DNA of 50,816 nt from Tissierellaceae bacterium (GTDB lineage: Bacteria; Bacillota; Clostridia; Tissierellales; Tissierellaceae), in the NCBI GenBank assembly GCA_029257065.1, contig JARIDA010000118.1, positions 1 to 50,816 on the forward strand, written 5' to 3'. Below are positions 4,562-47,220 of this stretch, in pieces (the first letter of the stretch is position 1; every line of letters begins with the position of its first letter). The position numbers and the translations under genes are program-made. A model generated the notes under the pieces. It was not told the DNA's origin, ran no database searches, and saw nothing but the letters and a program-made list of their open reading frames with translations.

Positions 4562-5569
4562 TTGAAAAATAGAATAGGAATATTAGGTGGAGGCAGTTGG
4601 GGAACAGCATTAGGTATATTATTGGCCAAAAAGGATAATGAAGTAGATATCTGGATAAGAGATAAAAATCAATATGAACAGATAAAAAGAGATAGAATCA
4701 ATAAAAAATATTTACCAAATATTAATTTTCCAGAAAAATTAAATCCTAGCAATAACATAATAGATTCAATTAGAGACAAAGATTTAATTATCCTAGCAAT
4801 TCCAACACATAGCATAAGAGAAAATTTAATAAGTATAAAAGATTATATAGAACCAAAACAAATAATATTAAATGTGTCAAAAGGCATTGAAAATGAAAGT
4901 TTACAATGTATATCGGGGATTGTGAAAGAAATAATACCTAATAATAAATATGCAGTATTATCAGGACCATCTCATGCTGAGGAAGTAGGATTAGATATGC
5001 CAACTACGGTTATTGTAGCTTCAGAGGATGAGAATATAGCGAAATTAGTTCAAGATATATTTATGACAATTAATTTTAGAGTCTATACCCATTCAGATGT
5101 TATTGGAGTAGAATTAGGTGGAGCACTTAAAAATGTAATTGCCTTAGGTGCAGGAATTTCAAGTGGATTAGGTTATGGAGACAATGCTAATGCTGCCATA
5201 ATTAATAGGGGAATATTTGAGATATCTAGATTAGGTGAAGCTATGGGAGGAAATAGAGTTACATTTTCAGGACTGTCTGGAATAGGAGATTTAATTGTAA
5301 CCTGTACCAGTGCTCACAGTAGAAATAGAAAAGCAGGATTATTAATTGGACAAGGGTTTAAAGTAGATGAAGCTATAGAAAAAACGGGAATGATAGTTGA
5401 AGGAATAAAAACTACTAAATCAGTTTATGATTTAGCAAAAAAATATAATGTAGAAATGCCTATATCAGAAGAAATATATAATATAATATATAAAAATAAG
5501 AATGTGAAAATAGCAACAGAATCTCTTATGGGAAGAGATAAAAAAATTGAAATGTATGATTTAATATAA
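4562..5569 (+). CDS. gpsA: NAD(P)-dependent glycerol-3-phosphate dehydrogenase
   Basis: A 335-residue cytosolic enzyme reducing dihydroxyacetone phosphate to sn-glycerol-3-phosphate for lipid synthesis. It shows the Rossmann loop GILGGGSWGTALG at residues 7-19, the SGPSHAEEV motif, and ELGGALKNVIALGAG, whose lysine is the catalytic residue of the family. It starts with TTG at 4562, preceded by TGGAGTTGA; no nearby ATG would keep the glycine-rich loop. It is the third gene of der-plsY-gpsA. Many spore-forming Firmicutes have spoIVA soon after gpsA; here two unrelated membrane-protein genes follow instead. Confidence 0.97.
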   Translation: MKNRIGILGGGSWGTALGILLAKKDNEVDIWIRDKNQYEQIKRDRINKKYLPNINFPEKLNPSNNIIDSIRDKDLIILAIPTHSIRENLISIKDYIEPKQIILNVSKGIENESLQCISGIVKEIIPNNKYAVLSGPSHAEEVGLDMPTTVIVASEDENIAKLVQDIFMTINFRVYTHSDVIGVELGGALKNVIALGAGISSGLGYGDNANAAIINRGIFEISRLGEAMGGNRVTFSGLSGIGDLIVTCTSAHSRNRKAGLLIGQGFKVDEAIEKTGMIVEGIKTTKSVYDLAKKYNVEMPISEEIYNIIYKNKNVKIATESLMGRDKKIEMYDLI

Positions 5570-5623
5570 CGGTTTTAAAATAAAGAAAATTATGATATAC
5601 TTGTGTGTATATTGGAGGTAATT

Positions 5624-5998
5624 ATGCTATATTATATAAAAATAATATTAATCACAAGTTTAGTAATTAGCTTAATGGGATTTCTCTTTGCAACAATAAG
5701 AGAAAAATATTATTTGAAAAATAATATAATAATAATTGATAATAATTCTCTAACAGAAGATGTTTTTGAAGATATAGATATAAATCAAATGTTTTTCAAA
5801 GGTTTAAAAATAAAAACAGGAGATGAATTAAAAATAAAAACAAAGGATAGGACTTATAAGGGAATATTATTAGGAGGTAAATTTAAAGAAGGTGTAATAA
5901 AAATCTTAATAAATTCTGAAGAATTGATTGAGTTGGAAGTAAAAAATATAATAGAGGTAAAATTATTAAGAGAATATGGTAAATTCTTTACTCTATAA
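5624..5998 (+). CDS. Small single-span membrane protein of unknown function
   Basis: I do not recognise this 124-residue protein. Residues 4-25 are one hydrophobic helix, and the rest is a charged, probably cytoplasmic domain. Its C-terminal part (FKGLKIKTGDELKIKTKDRTYKG and what follows) looks like a small beta-barrel with alternating hydrophobic residues. The ATG at 5624 is chosen because GGAGG at 5614-5618 precedes it by 5 bases; the upstream GTG at 5603 has no such site. It lies between gpsA and the HlyD-like gene, 22 bases ahead of the latter, and is likely co-transcribed with it. An Sm- or SH3-like fold is only a guess. Confidence 0.7.
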   Translation: MLYYIKIILITSLVISLMGFLFATIREKYYLKNNIIIIDNNSLTEDVFEDIDINQMFFKGLKIKTGDELKIKTKDRTYKGILLGGKFKEGVIKILINSEELIELEVKNIIEVKLLREYGKFFTL

Positions 5999-6020
5999 TA
6001 ATTAAGATAGGTGAGATGAT

Positions 6021-7307
6021 ATGAGTTTAAATAGGAATAATAAACCCAAAAGACTTAAAATACCAATGAAATTTTTTTTAGGAGTAGTTTTAACATATTT
6101 AATAATTAGAGCTATTCCATATTCTTATTCTAGTTCAAATACATTATTACCAAAAAAAGAAAATTTATTGGAGACTATAGAAACAAAAGGAATATTAATA
6201 AAAAAAGAAACCACTTATAATGCTAGTGACAATGGAATGGTAGAAATATTTGTTGAAGAAGGCAATAGAATAAAAGCTGGAACTAAAATAGCAACTTTAA
6301 AAAGCTCTGAAGATAGCTCTATGATAGAAGGAGAATTATTTCAGGTTGAAGAATCTTTAAGAGAATTAAGAGATTCGAAAATAGAATTAGATGTTTCGAA
6401 CAAAAAACTATCTGATGAAGAGTTAGAAAAAAAAGTGATTATGGATATTCAATCCAGTATAAAAAATGATAAATTAGAAAGAATATATATATATAAAGAT
6501 CAACTGTCTAATATTGGAGTAGAAGGTCAATCATCAGAAAAAGATTTGGAAAGTGATGCCATATCTATATTGGAGGATAAAAGAGATCGTTTAACAGCTG
6601 ATATGAATGAAAAATTAAAACAATACTATTCTGAAACTGGTGGATTAGTTTCGTATAAAATAGATCTATATGAGGAAGAATACATACCTAAAGATTTTGA
6701 AAAATATAACTATGACAGATTAAAAGCAGATATGAGTCAATTGGATCAAAAAATTGAAAGAAATACAACTCAATTTGAGATTGAAATTAATAGCCCAATA
6801 TATAAGATTATAGATAATTTTGAATGGCATTTAGCTATATTAGTTGATGATTTAAAAGAGATTGAAGAAATTAAAAATGATAATACTGTAACAATAAAAA
6901 TAGATGAAGATGATAAAAATATAACTGGAAAAGTTGTTATGATAAATGAATTTAAGAATAATGGAGTAATAATATTAAGATTTACTGATAGGCTTCATGA
7001 TTACTATGATTCTAGAATTATGGATATTAGCATATTAAAATCAAATAAAATTGGATATAAGATGCCAAAAGATGCTATAATAGATAAAGAAGGAGAAATA
7101 GGACTTTATATAAAAGATTTAAGTGGAGTTATTAGATTTAGACCTGTATCAATAATAGGAGAAGATAATAAAAATTACTATCTAGAAGCAGGTGATGATA
7201 GTGGAAACTTAAGATTAAATGATGATAAAGTTATAAAAACTATAACCAACTTTGATGAGGTTTTTCTAAAACCTGAAAACTTAAGAGAAGGTAGTATAAT
7301 AAAATAA
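6021..7307 (+). CDS. HlyD-like membrane-anchored protein in the division cluster
   Basis: A 428-residue protein with a short basic N-terminus, one membrane helix (about residues 17-33), then a large extracytoplasmic part. After the helix come a beta-strand segment resembling a biotinyl-lipoyl half-motif (GMVEIFVEEGNRIKAGTKIATL, split around about residue 75), charged helices of coiled-coil character (about 95-250) and a C-terminal beta-rich domain. That is the HlyD/RND adaptor order. No ABC or RND transporter gene is near. The next gene is sepF, 65 bases on, so a division or envelope role is possible, but that is inference from position alone. ATG at 6021 is preceded by AGGTGAGATG. The sequence is very Lys/Ile/Asn rich, like its neighbours. 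Confidence 0.72.
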   Translation: MSLNRNNKPKRLKIPMKFFLGVVLTYLIIRAIPYSYSSSNTLLPKKENLLETIETKGILIKKETTYNASDNGMVEIFVEEGNRIKAGTKIATLKSSEDSSMIEGELFQVEESLRELRDSKIELDVSNKKLSDEELEKKVIMDIQSSIKNDKLERIYIYKDQLSNIGVEGQSSEKDLESDAISILEDKRDRLTADMNEKLKQYYSETGGLVSYKIDLYEEEYIPKDFEKYNYDRLKADMSQLDQKIERNTTQFEIEINSPIYKIIDNFEWHLAILVDDLKEIEEIKNDNTVTIKIDEDDKNITGKVVMINEFKNNGVIILRFTDRLHDYYDSRIMDISILKSNKIGYKMPKDAIIDKEGEIGLYIKDLSGVIRFRPVSIIGEDNKNYYLEAGDDSGNLRLNDDKVIKTITNFDEVFLKPENLREGSIIK

Positions 7308-7372: not shown

Positions 7373-7813
7373 TTGAGTAATTTTGTAGAGAAAATGAAAT
7401 TTTTTATAGGAATTGGCGATGAGGAATATGAAGAGGAATATGAACAATATGATAATTATACAGATAATTATGATCAACCAAAAGAAACAACTAAGACAAA
7501 AAGAGTAAATAATAATGTGGTTAATCTACATACGAATAGTAATATGAAAATAGTAGTTCATGAACCTTTAAATTATGAAGAGGCTCCAACTATAGTTAAT
7601 GATCTTAAATTGAGAAAAACAGTTGTTGTAAATTTAGAACAATTGGACTCAGAAGTAAAAAGACAAATCTTTGACTTCATTAATGGAGGGTTATATTCAC
7701 TAGAAGGAAATATACAAAAAGTTACTACTGATATTTTTGTTTTAGCACCTAATAATGTTGAAATAGATGGATTGAAAGATGATTTAAAAAATAAGGGAAT
7801 TTTTTCTTGGTAG
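7373..7813 (+). CDS. sepF: Cell division protein SepF
   Basis: A 146-residue cytoplasmic protein that binds FtsZ filaments and tethers them to the membrane in Gram-positive bacteria lacking or supplementing FtsA. The N-terminal stretch MSNFVEKMKFFIGIG is the expected amphipathic membrane anchor, followed by an acidic, Tyr/Asn-rich linker (about residues 18-50). The C-terminal SepF core (about 57-143) contains VHEPLNYEEAPTIVNDLKLRK and FINGGLYSLEGNIQKV, typical of the family. It starts at TTG 7373 with GGAGGG seven to twelve bases upstream. It heads the sepF-yggT-ylmH-divIVA cluster. Confidence 0.95.
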   Translation: MSNFVEKMKFFIGIGDEEYEEEYEQYDNYTDNYDQPKETTKTKRVNNNVVNLHTNSNMKIVVHEPLNYEEAPTIVNDLKLRKTVVVNLEQLDSEVKRQIFDFINGGLYSLEGNIQKVTTDIFVLAPNNVEIDGLKDDLKNKGIFSW

Positions 7814-7831: not shown

Positions 7832-8098
7832 ATGATTCTATTTTATCGTGCTGTGGGAAAACTTATTGAAATTATTGAACTGGCCATTCTGATTAGGGTA
7901 TTTATATCCTTTATAGGTATTGAAAGTAAAAATGTAATTACGGATTTAATATATCAGATTACTGAGCCAATAATGAGTTTTTCTAGAAATTTAATAATAA
8001 AAACAAAAATAAACACTGGTTATTTAGATTTCTCACCTATTGTAGCATTTATAATAATGAGAGTTTTCTATAGTTTGTTAGGGAGAGTATTGTTTTAA
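7832..8098 (+). CDS. YggT family integral membrane protein
   Basis: An 88-residue protein with two hydrophobic helices (about residues 14-32 and 64-85) joined by a loop that contains the YQITEPIMSFSRNLI family signature. YggT/YlmG proteins sit in the sepF-divIVA cluster of most Firmicutes and in chloroplasts; the molecular role is unsettled, with links to division and osmotic tolerance. The TAA stop at 8096-8098 is directly followed by the ylmH ATG at 8099, implying translational coupling. Confidence 0.9.
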   Translation: MILFYRAVGKLIEIIELAILIRVFISFIGIESKNVITDLIYQITEPIMSFSRNLIIKTKINTGYLDFSPIVAFIIMRVFYSLLGRVLF

Positions 8099-8896
8099 AT
8101 GGGAAATAATTTTAATGTTGATAGAGAAGAGTATATATCACATATTCATGATATTGAAGAAATAGCTGATATGAGGAGAGTTTTAGATAAAATAGAGATA
8201 GTGCTTAGAACTTATGGTATAGAGTCAACAGATTTTTTAAGTCCATATACAAGGAAATTAGCTAAATCTATTTTAAATAGATTTTTAGAGATTTCCTATA
8301 GTGAAATAGGTGGTCTTGAGGATGCGGAGAGACAATCCATATTGATCTATCCTGAGTATCATTATTTAACTGATGATGACTATCCTGTATCAGCTATTAG
8401 ATTAAAAGGAGATATGGAAGGATTATCTCATAGAGATTTTTTAGGAGCAGTTTTAAATATAGGTATAACAAGAGATAAAATAGGAGATATATTGGTTCAC
8501 GATAATTATGCAGATATAATAGTAAAGACTGAAATAAGAAATTTTATATTAATTAATATTGATAAAATAGGGAATAATAAATTCAAATCAAGTGAAATTT
8601 CTTTTCATGAATTAGAAGAAGTAGAAGATGAATTTAGAGAAATAAACCAAACCTTATCATCAGCTAGATTAGATGTGTATTTAAGTGCTGCTTATAATTT
8701 TTCTAGGAAAGTGAGTCAAGGATTAATAGAATCTGGAAAAGTAAAAGTGAATTGGGAACCAGTTGATAAAACTTTTATAGAAGTTCAAGAGGGGGATATG
8801 GTCTCAACTCGTGGATATGGAAGATCTAAACTATATTCTATTGATGGGTTGAGTAGGAAAGACAGATTAAAGGTGAGAATAAGAATATTATTATAA
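8099..8896 (+). CDS. YlmH-type S4-domain RNA-binding protein
   Basis: A 265-residue cytoplasmic protein with a YlmH N-terminal domain and a C-terminal S4 RNA-binding domain (about residues 185-250; LSSARLDVYLSAAYNFSRKVSQGLIESGKVKVN). It is the family encoded next to sepF and divIVA in Gram-positives. Bacillus YlmH has been tied to ribosome quality control, acting on peptidyl-tRNA in stalled 50S subunits. That fits the presence of rqcH later in this window, though the link here is inference. The ATG abuts the yggT stop with no gap, and the Shine-Dalgarno (GGGAGAG) lies inside yggT. Confidence 0.9.
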   Translation: MGNNFNVDREEYISHIHDIEEIADMRRVLDKIEIVLRTYGIESTDFLSPYTRKLAKSILNRFLEISYSEIGGLEDAERQSILIYPEYHYLTDDDYPVSAIRLKGDMEGLSHRDFLGAVLNIGITRDKIGDILVHDNYADIIVKTEIRNFILINIDKIGNNKFKSSEISFHELEEVEDEFREINQTLSSARLDVYLSAAYNFSRKVSQGLIESGKVKVNWEPVDKTFIEVQEGDMVSTRGYGRSKLYSIDGLSRKDRLKVRIRILL

Positions 8897-8908: not shown

Positions 8909-9373
8909 ATGATTACACCCTTAGAAATTCAAAATAAAATCTTTAAAAAATCTTTTAAAGGTTATAACAAGCAAGAAGTAGATAGTTTTTTAGAGGATAT
9001 TTTAAAAAGTTATGAAAATATATATAAAGAAAATATTGAGTTTAAGGATAAAATTGGATCATTATCAGAACAAGTAAGCAAATATAATAATTTGGAAGAA
9101 ACTCTTAAAGACACTTTAGTATTAGCTCAAAGTACTGCAGATGAAGTAACAAAATCAGCAAGAAAAAAATCAGAGTTAATTATTGAAGAGGCAGAGATAA
9201 AAGCTAAGGAAGAGTTGTGGAAATCAGAACTTAGAGTAGAAAAAGTAAATAATGAATATGAAGAGTTAAAAAAAGAAATGATAGTATTTAAAAATAATTA
9301 TTTATATTTTTTAAAAGCTCAAATGGATTCCATTGGAGAATTTGCAAAGATAGAAGAATTGGAAAAAGATTAG
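8909..9373 (+). CDS. divIVA: DivIVA-like cell pole and division site protein
   Basis: A 154-residue coiled-coil protein. The N-terminal lipid-binding DivIVA domain is clear (MITPLEIQNKIFKKSFKGYN, then QEVDSFLEDILKSYE), and residues about 30-150 are almost all heptad-like charged helix. DivIVA senses membrane curvature at septum and poles and recruits division or wall-synthesis partners. It closes the sepF-yggT-ylmH-divIVA cluster, 12 bases after ylmH, and a terminator lies 33 bases past its stop. Its length matches the usual 150-180 of clostridial homologues. Confidence 0.94.
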   Translation: MITPLEIQNKIFKKSFKGYNKQEVDSFLEDILKSYENIYKENIEFKDKIGSLSEQVSKYNNLEETLKDTLVLAQSTADEVTKSARKKSELIIEEAEIKAKEELWKSELRVEKVNNEYEELKKEMIVFKNNYLYFLKAQMDSIGEFAKIEELEKD

Positions 9374-9406: not shown

Positions 9407-9430
9407 AGAGGCTTAGTGCCTCTTTTTTAT
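9407..9430 (+). terminator. Rho-independent terminator after divIVA
   Basis: Stem AGAGGC (9407-9412) with GCCTCT (9418-9423), loop TTAGT, then a T run at 9424-9428. It ends the division cluster and lies 28 bases before the DAHP synthase start codon. Confidence 0.8.
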
Positions 9431-43622: not shown

Positions 43623-43644
43623 ATGATTTAAAGAGGTGATAAAT

Positions 43645-46600
43645 TTGAAATTAAAAAAGATAGACTTAAGAGGTTTTAAATCTTTCCCTGATAAAACTAC
43701 AATAAATTTTAAAAGTGGTATAACAGGAGTAGTTGGACCCAATGGAAGTGGGAAAAGTAATATCTCAGATGCTGTTAGATGGGTTTTAGGAGAACAGAGT
43801 GCAAAGACATTAAGAGGGAATAAGATGGAAGATGTTATATTTTCTGGAACAGAGAAACGTAAACCCTTAGGATTTTCTGAAGTAACAATAACTCTGGATA
43901 ATAGTTCTGGGAAAATACCAATTGATTATGAAGAGGTTGGAATAACTCGAAGAGTTTTTAGATCTGGAGAGTCTGAGTATTATATAAATAAAAATGGATG
44001 TAGACTTAGAGATATAAGGGAACTTTTTATGGATACAGGAATAGGTAAAGAGGGATATTCCATTATAGGTCAAGGTAGAATAGATGAAATACTTAGCGAT
44101 AAAGCTGAAGATAGAAGAAGTATATTTGAAGAAGCTGCAGGTATAGTTAAGTATAAGTCTAAAAAGGATGAGTCTAATAGAAAATTAATTAGGACAGAAG
44201 AAAATCTTATTAGAGTAAATGATTTGGTTTCTGAATTAAAAAGTCGAGAGAGAAGTTTAAAAAATCAAGTTGAAAAGGCGAGAAGTTACAAGGATATATA
44301 TTCAAAACTTAAAAAGATAAATATTAACTTGTATTTAAGAGATATAGATGAGTCGGAGAGAATAAATAAAAAAAATTCAGAAAATATAGTAAGTATAAAG
44401 AATGAATTAAAGGAAAACTCTAAAAACAAGGATGAAATTACAGAAATATTAAAAAAATTAAAAACACAATTGGAAGAAAATCAAATAGAATACAATTCTA
44501 AAAATGAAAAGAAATATAATTTGTTACAAAATATAGAGTCTGAAAAAAATAAGATTGAACTATTAGATGAGAAAGAAAGATTTAATTTAAGAGATTTGGA
44601 AAGATTAAAAATAGAAGATGAATCTATTAGTGAGAACATTTCAATAAGAAATCTAGAAAACAAAGATTTGGAAGATGAAATTTCTTTGCTTGAAGTAGAA
44701 TTGGAAGAAAAAAAGAAGATATTTACAGAAAAAGAAATAGAACTTAAAAAAGCTATAGATTTAATAAATCAAGAAGAAAGTGCCTTAGAAGAAAATAAAA
44801 ATAAAGCTATGGAACTTTATAACTCATTATCCGATAGTAGATCTGAACTTAACAGTATTGTATCTTTTAATGAAAATATAAATAAGAGAACAATCCAACT
44901 TGCAGATGGTATAAAAGAGAAAAAAGAAGCTTTAGATGAGGAAATCAGATATATTGAGTCAGATGAAAAATTAAAAGAGAGTTTCAAAAAAAATCTAACG
45001 GATCTTAAATTAAAGGTGGATAGAGATAATGAGGAGTTAATTAAAAATGAAAATGTTCTTACAAAATTAAATCAAGATATAAATAAAATAAATATTGATA
45101 TTCAAACCAATATTTCTAATTATAGAGTTTATAAAAATATGGAGTCCAGCTATGAAGGATATTATAGAGGAGTTAAAGAAGTCTTAAAAGCTGGGGAAAA
45201 ACATAAAGAAATAAATGCTAATTTGATTGGGGTAGTTGCTGAATTAGTTAAAGTTGATGAAAAATACGAAATTGCTATTAGCACTGCTTTAGGAGGAAAT
45301 TCTCAAAATATAGTTACAGGCACACAGTTAGGTGCAAAGTTAATAATAGATTATCTAAGGAGAAATAAATTAGGAAGAGTTACTTGTCTACCTTTAGATA
45401 CTATAAAGGGTAGTGAAATGGGACTTAATGATAAGGACAGAGCAGACTTTAATGTTGTGGGAATAGCATCTGAAATAATAGAGTTTGAAGAAAAGTATAG
45501 GAATATTTTTGAGAATCTATTAGGAAGAACAGTTATAGTAAAAGATATGAATAATGCTATTGGACTTTCTAATAAATATAAAAATAGATTGAGGATAGTT
45601 ACTTTGGAAGGTGATGTAATTAATCCAGGAGGGTCTATGACAGGTGGAAGTCAGGGTAGAAATAATTCTAATATACTAAGTAGAAAAAATAGAATTGAAA
45701 AAATAGAAAAAACTGTTAAAAAATATAGAATCGATAAAGAAAAATTAGAATACAATAAAAAGAATCTAGAATCAGATTTAAATGAGAAAAAAACAGAGTT
45801 ATTTAAAATACAAAATAGCATTCAAGAAAAAGAATACGAGTTAATAAATTTAGAAAATAAAATAAATAACAGAAATGAAAATAAAAAACGATTAGAATTC
45901 TCTATAAATAATGAAAAGTTGGAAATTGATAGTTTGGAAGAAGAAATAGAAAATTATTCTAAGAGAAAAATTCAAATAGAAGATGAAATAGATAAACTAA
46001 ATATAGAATTAGAAGAGATACAGATATCTACTAAAAACTTAAATCTTAGAGTAAAAGAAATGAAGACTGAGAATGAAATATTGACTAACGAGAATATAGA
46101 TGAAAAAATAATAATTAATAAAAAAGAAAATGAATTATCCAATTTAAAAGAGAGACAAAGTGAGAATTCAAAGATTATTAGAAATAACAAATTGGAGATA
46201 TCAGAAAAATTAAAAACAAAAACAATTATAAAAGGCCAGTTACTAGAGATAAAAAAAGATTTTGAAGATACAAATATTAATATAGATATACTTAAAAAAG
46301 ATTTAGAGAATTTAGAAATTAGTATAAAAGAGAGTGGATTAAAAAAAGAAAAGCTAGAATCTCAAATGCTTGAGCAAGATGAGAATTTAGAAGGTGTTTT
46401 ATTGAAAATCGATAAATTAGAAAAAGGATACTCTAAAGAAGAACTTAGGAATGAAAAATTAAGATTGAAAATTCAATCATTGCATGATAAACTTTTTCTT
46501 GAATATGATATAGAATATGAATCTGCTAAAGAGTTTAGAGATTTGTCTTTGGATTTGAACAATGCTAGAGATGAATCCAAGAAATTAACAGATAAAATAA

Positions 46601-47220
46601 AAAAACTTGGGACAGTTAATTTAGCTTCGATTGAAGAGTATGAAGAGCTGTCTGAAAGACTTGGATTTATATTAAGTCAAGAAAAAGATCTTTCAGATGC
46701 TAAAAAAGATCTAGAAGAAATAATAAGTGGAATAGAAAAAGAAATGAATGAAAAATTTATGAATAGTTTTTCAAAGATTAAGAAAAATTTCACTGAAATA
46801 TTCAAGGTTCTATTTAATGGGGGAAATGCAAATTTAATATTGAGTAACAAAGAGGATATATTGAATACAGGAATAGATATAGTAGCCCAACCACCTGGTA
46901 AAAGATTACAAAATTTAAATTCTCTATCAGGGGGAGAGAGATCGTTAACTGCAGTAGCCTTGTTATTTGCAATATTAAAAATGAAGCCTTCTCCATTTTG
47001 TATATTAGATGAGATAGATGCAGCTTTAGATGAAGCTAATATTGGTAGATATACAAAATATTTAAGAGAGATAAGCAATGAAATGCAATTTATTATAATA
47101 ACACATAGAAAAACAACTATGGAAGTTGCAGACACCCTTTATGGTATAACAATGGAAGAAAAAGGGGTTTCTAAGTTACTTTCAATAGAGCTAACAGAAT
47201 ACGAGGAAGAGGTAAGCTAG
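43645..47220 (+). CDS. smc: Chromosome segregation ATPase SMC
   Basis: A 1191-residue condensin subunit. The head has Walker A GPNGSGKS (31-38) and the RWVLGEQSAKTLRG block. Long coiled-coil arms (about 170-500 and 665-1020) flank the hinge (about 505-665; GVVAELVKVDEKYEIAISTALGG and NPGGSMTGGS). The C-terminal head has the signature LSGGERSLTAVALLFA and Walker B FCILDEIDAALDE. SMC with ScpA/B organises and segregates chromosomes. TTG 43645 is chosen because AAGAGGTGAT precedes it by about 6 bases and KLKKIDLRGFKSF is the usual N-terminus; GTG 43636 overlaps the ribosome site. ftsY follows 10 bases later. Confidence 0.97.
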   Translation: MKLKKIDLRGFKSFPDKTTINFKSGITGVVGPNGSGKSNISDAVRWVLGEQSAKTLRGNKMEDVIFSGTEKRKPLGFSEVTITLDNSSGKIPIDYEEVGITRRVFRSGESEYYINKNGCRLRDIRELFMDTGIGKEGYSIIGQGRIDEILSDKAEDRRSIFEEAAGIVKYKSKKDESNRKLIRTEENLIRVNDLVSELKSRERSLKNQVEKARSYKDIYSKLKKININLYLRDIDESERINKKNSENIVSIKNELKENSKNKDEITEILKKLKTQLEENQIEYNSKNEKKYNLLQNIESEKNKIELLDEKERFNLRDLERLKIEDESISENISIRNLENKDLEDEISLLEVELEEKKKIFTEKEIELKKAIDLINQEESALEENKNKAMELYNSLSDSRSELNSIVSFNENINKRTIQLADGIKEKKEALDEEIRYIESDEKLKESFKKNLTDLKLKVDRDNEELIKNENVLTKLNQDINKINIDIQTNISNYRVYKNMESSYEGYYRGVKEVLKAGEKHKEINANLIGVVAELVKVDEKYEIAISTALGGNSQNIVTGTQLGAKLIIDYLRRNKLGRVTCLPLDTIKGSEMGLNDKDRADFNVVGIASEIIEFEEKYRNIFENLLGRTVIVKDMNNAIGLSNKYKNRLRIVTLEGDVINPGGSMTGGSQGRNNSNILSRKNRIEKIEKTVKKYRIDKEKLEYNKKNLESDLNEKKTELFKIQNSIQEKEYELINLENKINNRNENKKRLEFSINNEKLEIDSLEEEIENYSKRKIQIEDEIDKLNIELEEIQISTKNLNLRVKEMKTENEILTNENIDEKIIINKKENELSNLKERQSENSKIIRNNKLEISEKLKTKTIIKGQLLEIKKDFEDTNINIDILKKDLENLEISIKESGLKKEKLESQMLEQDENLEGVLLKIDKLEKGYSKEELRNEKLRLKIQSLHDKLFLEYDIEYESAKEFRDLSLDLNNARDESKKLTDKIKKLGTVNLASIEEYEELSERLGFILSQEKDLSDAKKDLEEIISGIEKEMNEKFMNSFSKIKKNFTEIFKVLFNGGNANLILSNKEDILNTGIDIVAQPPGKRLQNLNSLSGGERSLTAVALLFAILKMKPSPFCILDEIDAALDEANIGRYTKYLREISNEMQFIIITHRKTTMEVADTLYGITMEEKGVSKLLSIELTEYEEEVS

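Follow-up and report, generated by a model that had tools for sequence, protein, structure and literature searches.

Solved membrane fusion proteins (MFPs) form rings. BesA, a Borrelia MFP that has no hairpin, is part of an RND efflux system in a two-membraned bacterium. MacA, YknX and SpMacA, the adaptors of MacB-type transporters (some of them Gram-positive), have the MFP fold and a single N-terminal span. According to passages of a source on such adaptors, macB homologues are often found in the same operon as their genes, some adaptors come from Gram-positive bacteria that have no outer membrane, and FtsEX shares the architecture of MacB, the related permease that MacA serves (PMC5985334). 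The protein of 428 residues described here shares the fold and the single span with these adaptors, whereas its gene has neither a macB homologue alongside nor any adjacent transporter; the short members of its family resemble BesA in that the hairpin is missing in both.

The genes that surround it belong to another context. In C. difficile, YlmG is found at midcell and SepF is essential, as stated in parts of the study cited here, and a text search for HlyD in the text of that study found no mention (PMC12548448). In passages of another paper, SepF, FtsZ, FtsA, YggT and YggS are named as neighbours of DivIVA, HlyD not being among the names given there (PMC9858780). A linkage of HlyD_2 to sepF was not found in our search of the open-access literature, and it may have been overlooked because no PF12700 match over the cut-off was revealed in Bacillus subtilis in the search of our phylum sample. 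The family itself is already known by profile (PF12700; TIGR02828, “putative membrane fusion protein”), and to our knowledge no function has been assigned to either profile.

Organization of the locus

The window, i.e., the whole analysed stretch of 50,816 nucleotides (contig JARIDA010000118.1 of the Tissierellaceae assembly GCA_029257065.1), contains two genes on the + strand between gpsA (4562-5569) and sepF (7373..7813, +; PF04472, E 1.2e-23). The first (5624..5998, +) comprises 124 codons from the ATG at 5624, its stop codon ending at 5998, and has an RBS-like motif; an alternative GTG start at 5603 would give 131 residues, but GGAGG stands right before 5624. The second (6021..7307, +), which starts at the ATG at 6021 and also has an RBS-like motif, encodes the 428-residue protein of the family PF12700 (HlyD_2), predicted to adopt an MFP fold with one membrane span. 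Downstream of sepF follow yggT (ylmG; 7832..8098, +; PF02325, E 3.4e-14), ylmH (8099..8896, +; PF17774 and an S4 domain) and divIVA (8909..9373, +; PF05103, E 5.4e-42). Thus, the two ORFs and the surroundings given in the preliminary description were confirmed from the ORFs, RBS-like motifs and Pfam matches. A terminator-like stem-loop 3' of divIVA (9407..9423, +) is the sole one in the region and is at chance level (0.7 expected by shuffling), and a promoter-like site 5' of the 124-residue gene (5574-5601) likewise matches at the frequency of shuffled sequence.

The yggS gene of this genome is an intact ORF on another contig (G000:C34:2268-2951; loci L143 and L151), and its product is 57% identical to the copy in locus L025. 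The cluster is also without yggS in a second genome (L002, G002).

It had been noted that no transporter gene lies nearby, and our search agrees with this: eight ORFs around the site were searched and no transporter was among them, and within the window ABC motifs are confined to one SMC-like ORF (43636-47217). The scan that picked up this ORF (Walker A plus signature motif) revealed no complete ABC-ATPase ORF in 151 HlyD_2 loci covering 1.02 Mb. Hence ABC transporter genes as consistent neighbours of HlyD_2, the observation that had been named as speaking against a division role, were not seen in complete form in any of these loci, nor did the ABC-ATPase scan find in them the cognate transporter gene that would be expected in the operon of an exporter adaptor. 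Short fragments resembling the end of an ABC ATPase were recognized by eye at the edges of two loci (L131 and L132), genes cut by locus ends being invisible to the motif scan. MacB-type permeases scored over the cut-off in 56/60 genomes of the order, elsewhere than at the locus, with one match in this genome; MacB_PCD gave no match in G006 or in G032, a single-contig genome with 100% completeness, and both carry HlyD_2.

Family and fold of the 428-residue protein

PF12700 matches residues 8-427 (E 1e-56) with 192.9 bits against a gathering cut-off of 25.1. The protein missed the curated cut-offs of TIGR02828 (61.2 bits vs 154.4) and of RND_mfp, TIGR01730 (18.1 bits vs 94.9), while all 27 aligned HlyD_2 members match TIGR02828 at a best E of 5.8e-33. 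It is the single HlyD_2 match in this genome (91.8% complete), even at E up to 10. A PDB sequence search with the protein gave no match; three helical PDB chains returned by the HlyD_2 profile search (E 0.0026 to 0.085) were taken as chance.

In the predicted structure (pLDDT 81.7, pTM 0.58), one N-terminal span is followed by membrane-proximal, beta-barrel, lipoyl and hairpin domains, as in the MFP fold. The predicted span corresponds to the model helix at residues 13-31 (6057..6113, +), and the tail before it is short and basic in the family (median 8 K/R and 1 D/E in the 120-sequence set), as would be expected for the cytoplasmic side. The top structural match was a TMexCD1 chain (Z 14.4, rmsd 15.3 over 301 residues), a MacA chain of MacAB-TolC gave Z 12.9 (rmsd 15.5 over 298 residues), and the tightest long superposition was obtained with BesA (Z 13.0, rmsd 4.6 over 241 residues), the only one of these adaptor structures for which the rmsd is not large. 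The MFP architecture proposed earlier for this protein is therefore borne out by the Pfam match, the model and the adaptors among its top structural matches.

The alpha-helical hairpin, a coiled coil, comprises residues 96-198 of the model (6306..6614, +), with boundaries set by us. On its 3' side lies the family signature G208-x2-S211-x3-D215-x2-E218 (6642..6674, +), which is among the most conserved columns of the 120 sequences and is found as a loose pattern (G-x2-S-x3-D-x2-E) in 100/120 of them. Conservation is lowest in the hairpin (1.31 bits) and in the N-terminal membrane-proximal strand (1.26 bits), compared with 1.41 to 1.96 bits in the other parts, values that depend on domain boundaries drawn by us and on a sequence set that includes fragments cut at contig ends. 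Furthermore, 5/120 aligned members have only 3-7 residues in place of the hairpin, two of them within the ylm cluster (L136 and L141). Among the 87 phylum members adjacent to sepF, 50 have frames of at most 360 residues and 34 of at least 380; the short ones are called hairpin-less by length, as alignment confirms for the 5 sequences above. Frames of 314 residues occur even in this genome's own family (G009 and G023). The large outside coiled coil, which had been emphasized in the preliminary description, is thus optional in the family, and one would expect the function that the members share to reside in the membrane-near core; the lipoyl, beta-barrel and C-terminal membrane-proximal core is conserved.

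Linkage of the HlyD_2 gene to sepF

HlyD_2 homologues were found in 60/60 genomes of the order (35 genera and 19 families, this genome included), and the small gene stands directly 5' of HlyD_2 in 30/30 fetched order loci, so both genes are more than chance ORFs. SepF was detected in 59/60 of these genomes. In the class sample of 291 genomes, the search with a 27-row profile revealed HlyD_2 in at least 234 and SepF was found in 274; the former number is a lower bound, as G096 went unmatched by the profile, yet carries the gene on direct reading (L147; PF12700, E 1.5e-33), about 0.5 kb ahead of sepF. When only genomes with a completeness of 90% or more and a contamination of 5% or less were counted, HlyD_2 was present in 193/230 with SepF vs 1/7 without it (Fisher p 1.6e-4 for co-occurrence, uncorrected for shared ancestry). 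In the phylum sample, PF12700 matched 168/199 genomes (165 over the cut-off) and SepF 175/199. HlyD_2 is usually a single-copy gene. Of the two order alignments used, A1 comprised 27/30 loci (L007, L010 and L011 excluded) and A2 28/30 (L007 and L011 excluded), some of their rows starting at an internal in-frame codon; the locus sets L001-L059 and L060-L112 overlap in genomes.

HlyD_2 precedes sepF on the same strand, at a distance of at most 2.5 kb, in 104/105 class genomes for which the coordinates of both were among the best-scoring matches listed (150 of the 234 HlyD_2 genomes and 150 of the 274 SepF genomes, 105 being shared). The median gap of 943 bases between the HlyD_2 match and the SepF domain in this sample leaves space for yggS. 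In the phylum sample, the gene is found on the same strand at most 2.6 kb upstream of sepF in 87/91 genomes with both listed among the best-scoring matches (132 of 168 and 142 of 175 genomes, 91 being shared), and in 84/87 outside the class; such best-scoring matches may favour clear cases of adjacency. The survey of Clostridia that had been proposed for this locus therefore revealed both co-occurrence and adjacency of HlyD_2 with sepF.

The collection of GTDB species, which includes genomes of Tissierella, Caloranaerobacter, Thermohalobacter, Lutispora, Acetivibrio, Petrocella and Tepidanaerobacter, gave the same picture: yggS and then sepF follow HlyD_2 in 49/53 loci, and the remaining four loci end at contig edges. 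Within the order, yggS comes after HlyD_2 in 28/30 loci, with sepF next in 27 (L024 ends before sepF), the two loci without it being those of this genome and L002. The nearest upstream ORF of at least 150 residues belongs to 34 different families in 97 loci, the largest accounting for 19, whereas downstream yggS was found in 105/114 fetched loci, followed by sepF in 100/107. Since the upstream families turn over and the downstream genes stay, the linkage exceeds what slow gene shuffling would leave, and the conserved block begins with HlyD_2 or with the small gene that precedes it. Where no yggS adjoins (this genome, L002 and L147), HlyD_2 is still close to sepF. Overall, across genera and families, and with the exceptions given below, the HlyD_2 gene is a conserved member of the SepF/ylm division cluster. 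A 155-residue ORF without a Pfam match (L147:5533-5997, G096) occupies the usual position of yggS between HlyD_2 and sepF in that locus.

The sole exception in the class, G312, has HlyD_2 and sepF on separate contigs (L149 and L150). Two small ORFs that appear toxin-antitoxin-like by eye precede sepF there (L149:521-1134), HlyD_2-yggS being on the other contig. In the phylum sample, the exceptions are G118, G516, G532 and G373. In G118, genes for YbbR and a diadenylate cyclase (DAC) lie upstream of HlyD_2 (L125:1126-4053) and sepF is on another contig. A second recurrent context is represented by L131, L132 and L142, in which a hairpin-less HlyD_2 stands between phoU and a PIN/PhoH gene; in the genome of the last locus, G516, sepF lies about 5 kb downstream of HlyD_2. 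Two further loci come from genomes without a SepF match, L136 with the order YlmD-like gene (Cu-oxidase_4), HlyD_2, yggS, yggT and ylmH, and L133 with HlyD_2, yggS and ylmH; of the 132 phylum genomes in which HlyD_2 was listed, no fewer than 15 lack SepF. Conversely, sepF clusters without HlyD_2 were found in family f55 (L144 and L145), family f75 (L146) and G196 (L148). SepF is thus not an obligate partner of HlyD_2, as either gene occurs alone in some lineages. Loss of the protein in close relatives with an unchanged sepF context had been named as an argument against the proposal; sepF clusters of this kind do exist, as the four loci just mentioned show, but none of them belongs to a close relative.

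The 124-residue protein

The model of the small protein (pLDDT 75.3, pTM 0.52) has an N-terminal helix (residues 2-32) followed by a small beta barrel (about 5786-5971), so that this model and that of the 428-residue protein each show one long N-terminal helix able to cross the membrane. In 28 sequences, the 15 residues after the span contain on average 3.7 K/R vs 0.5 before it, and the C-terminal barrel is therefore, judging from the sequences, probably on the cytoplasmic side, opposite the HlyD_2 domain. The closest structural match of the barrel is the N-terminal domain of GatD (Z 7.9, rmsd 2.9 over 67 residues), from which the membrane span sets the protein apart, and Sm, Hfq and LSm barrels rank just below; a Z under 8 obtained with a model of this pTM could reflect merely a common arrangement. 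The sequence comparisons gave low scores: GatD_N matched 5/28 members (best E 0.00088), no family cut-off was passed, the protein of the window missed the gathering cut-off of GatD_N with 19 bits vs 25.7, and the PDB sequence search gave weak matches only, e.g., ribosomal protein L24 at E 0.022.

The two proteins had been described together as placed directly before sepF. The small one is not a general companion of SepF, since it was found in 6/291 class genomes, namely in 5 of the 13 genomes of the order in that sample, in 0/8 of family f4 and in one other genome. Judging from this distribution, it is a local accessory.

Discussion

Based on the synteny with yggS-sepF, the lack of an exporter alongside and the occurrence counts, we assign the 428-residue protein to the division-and-envelope cluster. 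According to this main reading, to which we give a probability of about 0.5, it is a membrane-anchored component of the ylm/sepF cluster with an MFP fold and not an exporter subunit. A gene that is a nearly fixed neighbour of yggS-sepF across the phylum and has no exporter genes beside it is what one would expect for a component of division or of the envelope and suggests such a role, function being what we infer here from gene order. The preliminary description had likewise favoured the division or envelope machinery over an exporter; the near-fixed position and the absence of exporter genes beside it uphold this preference. The description is supported in part only: the large coiled coil is optional, the small protein is rare in the class, and HlyD_2 and sepF can each occur without the other. 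The midcell position of YlmG and the essentiality of SepF in C. difficile, taken from parts of the study cited above, make the prediction of a division role testable (PMC12548448).

Several other readings have to be weighed against this one. It is rather unlikely, though the most probable among them, that the protein is an adaptor that works with a MacB-type or another transporter encoded elsewhere, its place before sepF giving steady expression only; the pair of YknX and YknYZ would be the model. Its fold and its Pfam family are those of adaptors, and nearly all genomes of the order carry MacB-type permeases, including the single match in this genome. The absence of an adjoining complete ABC-ATPase ORF in all 151 loci, the presence of HlyD_2 in G006 and G032 without a MacB_PCD match and the frequent loss of the hairpin speak against such an adaptor, even though, in the passages cited, Gram-positive adaptors without an outer membrane do exist (PMC5985334). 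A more specific variant, in which the protein would be a septal adaptor of FtsX, a type VII (MacB-like) permease controlling wall hydrolases, appears improbable to us: MacA chains rank high in the structural comparison and, by the same passages, MacA serves the permease MacB, whose architecture FtsEX has (PMC5985334), but no ftsE-like ABC ATPase was found in the fetched loci.

The ylm cluster may also have a general envelope function that is not bound to division, e.g., stress, lipid or wall homeostasis together with yggS and its neighbours. We regard this as slightly less probable than an adaptor of a distant transporter and more probable than a partner of FtsX. The retention of HlyD_2 with yggS, yggT and ylmH (L136) or with yggS and ylmH (L133) despite the loss of sepF fits such a function, as do the phoU-PIN/PhoH and YbbR-DAC surroundings; HlyD_2 nevertheless stays near sepF where yggS is not adjacent, and among nearly complete genomes those lacking SepF have it less often than those with SepF (1/7 vs 193/230). 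Finally, a role in sporulation, at the asymmetric septum or the engulfing membrane, is disfavoured and very improbable. Several relatives carry spoIVA on the same strand, about 1.5 to 10 kb upstream, yet SpoIVA scored over the cut-off in only 39/60 genomes of the order (41 at E 0.001) vs 60/60 for HlyD_2, and had no match in this genome, and we rejected sporulation as the main role. The short gap between gpsA and the small gene (5570-5623 of the window) may reflect the loss of sporulation genes, considering the upstream spoIVA of those relatives.

If the 428-residue protein is indeed a component of the division-and-envelope cluster, it might assemble into a ring at the septum, on the outward-facing side of the membrane. 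The span and the short basic tail of the protein would couple this ring to the side of SepF, FtsZ and DivIVA, and its core may act on, or organize, wall enzymes of the septum or the space that separates membrane and wall. For Tissierellales and their relatives, the 124-residue protein would be an accessory on the cytoplasmic side, beneath the HlyD_2 protein. A bolder version, which we put forward only tentatively and consider clearly less probable than membership of the cluster as such, is that of a core division protein of many Bacillota that has escaped recognition, namely a ring of MFP fold that lost its pump and was recruited to the septum, linking SepF, FtsZ and DivIVA inside to the wall outside. 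The long hairpin, now often deleted, could in this version be left over from an ancestor that spanned the envelope.

Should the main reading be correct, a widespread gene that is automatically annotated as an adaptor for secretion or efflux would encode a factor of division or of the envelope. Moreover, it would represent an extracytoplasmic, membrane-anchored candidate linked to SepF by gene order in bacteria that mostly have no FtsA over the cut-off: FtsA scored over the curated cut-off in 60/291 class genomes, so that most members of the class may lean on SepF for anchoring of the Z-ring. A direct link between HlyD_2 and FtsA was considered and rejected, as HlyD_2 was unmatched in 14/60 genomes with FtsA vs 43/231 others (p 0.47, no association); one of these 14, G096, carries the gene on direct reading (L147). 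In this genome, an FtsA-like protein with an open frame of 622 residues (G000:C93:8090-9199) scored under the FtsA cut-off. Such long FtsA-like frames, of about 580-790 residues, are recurrent across the class.
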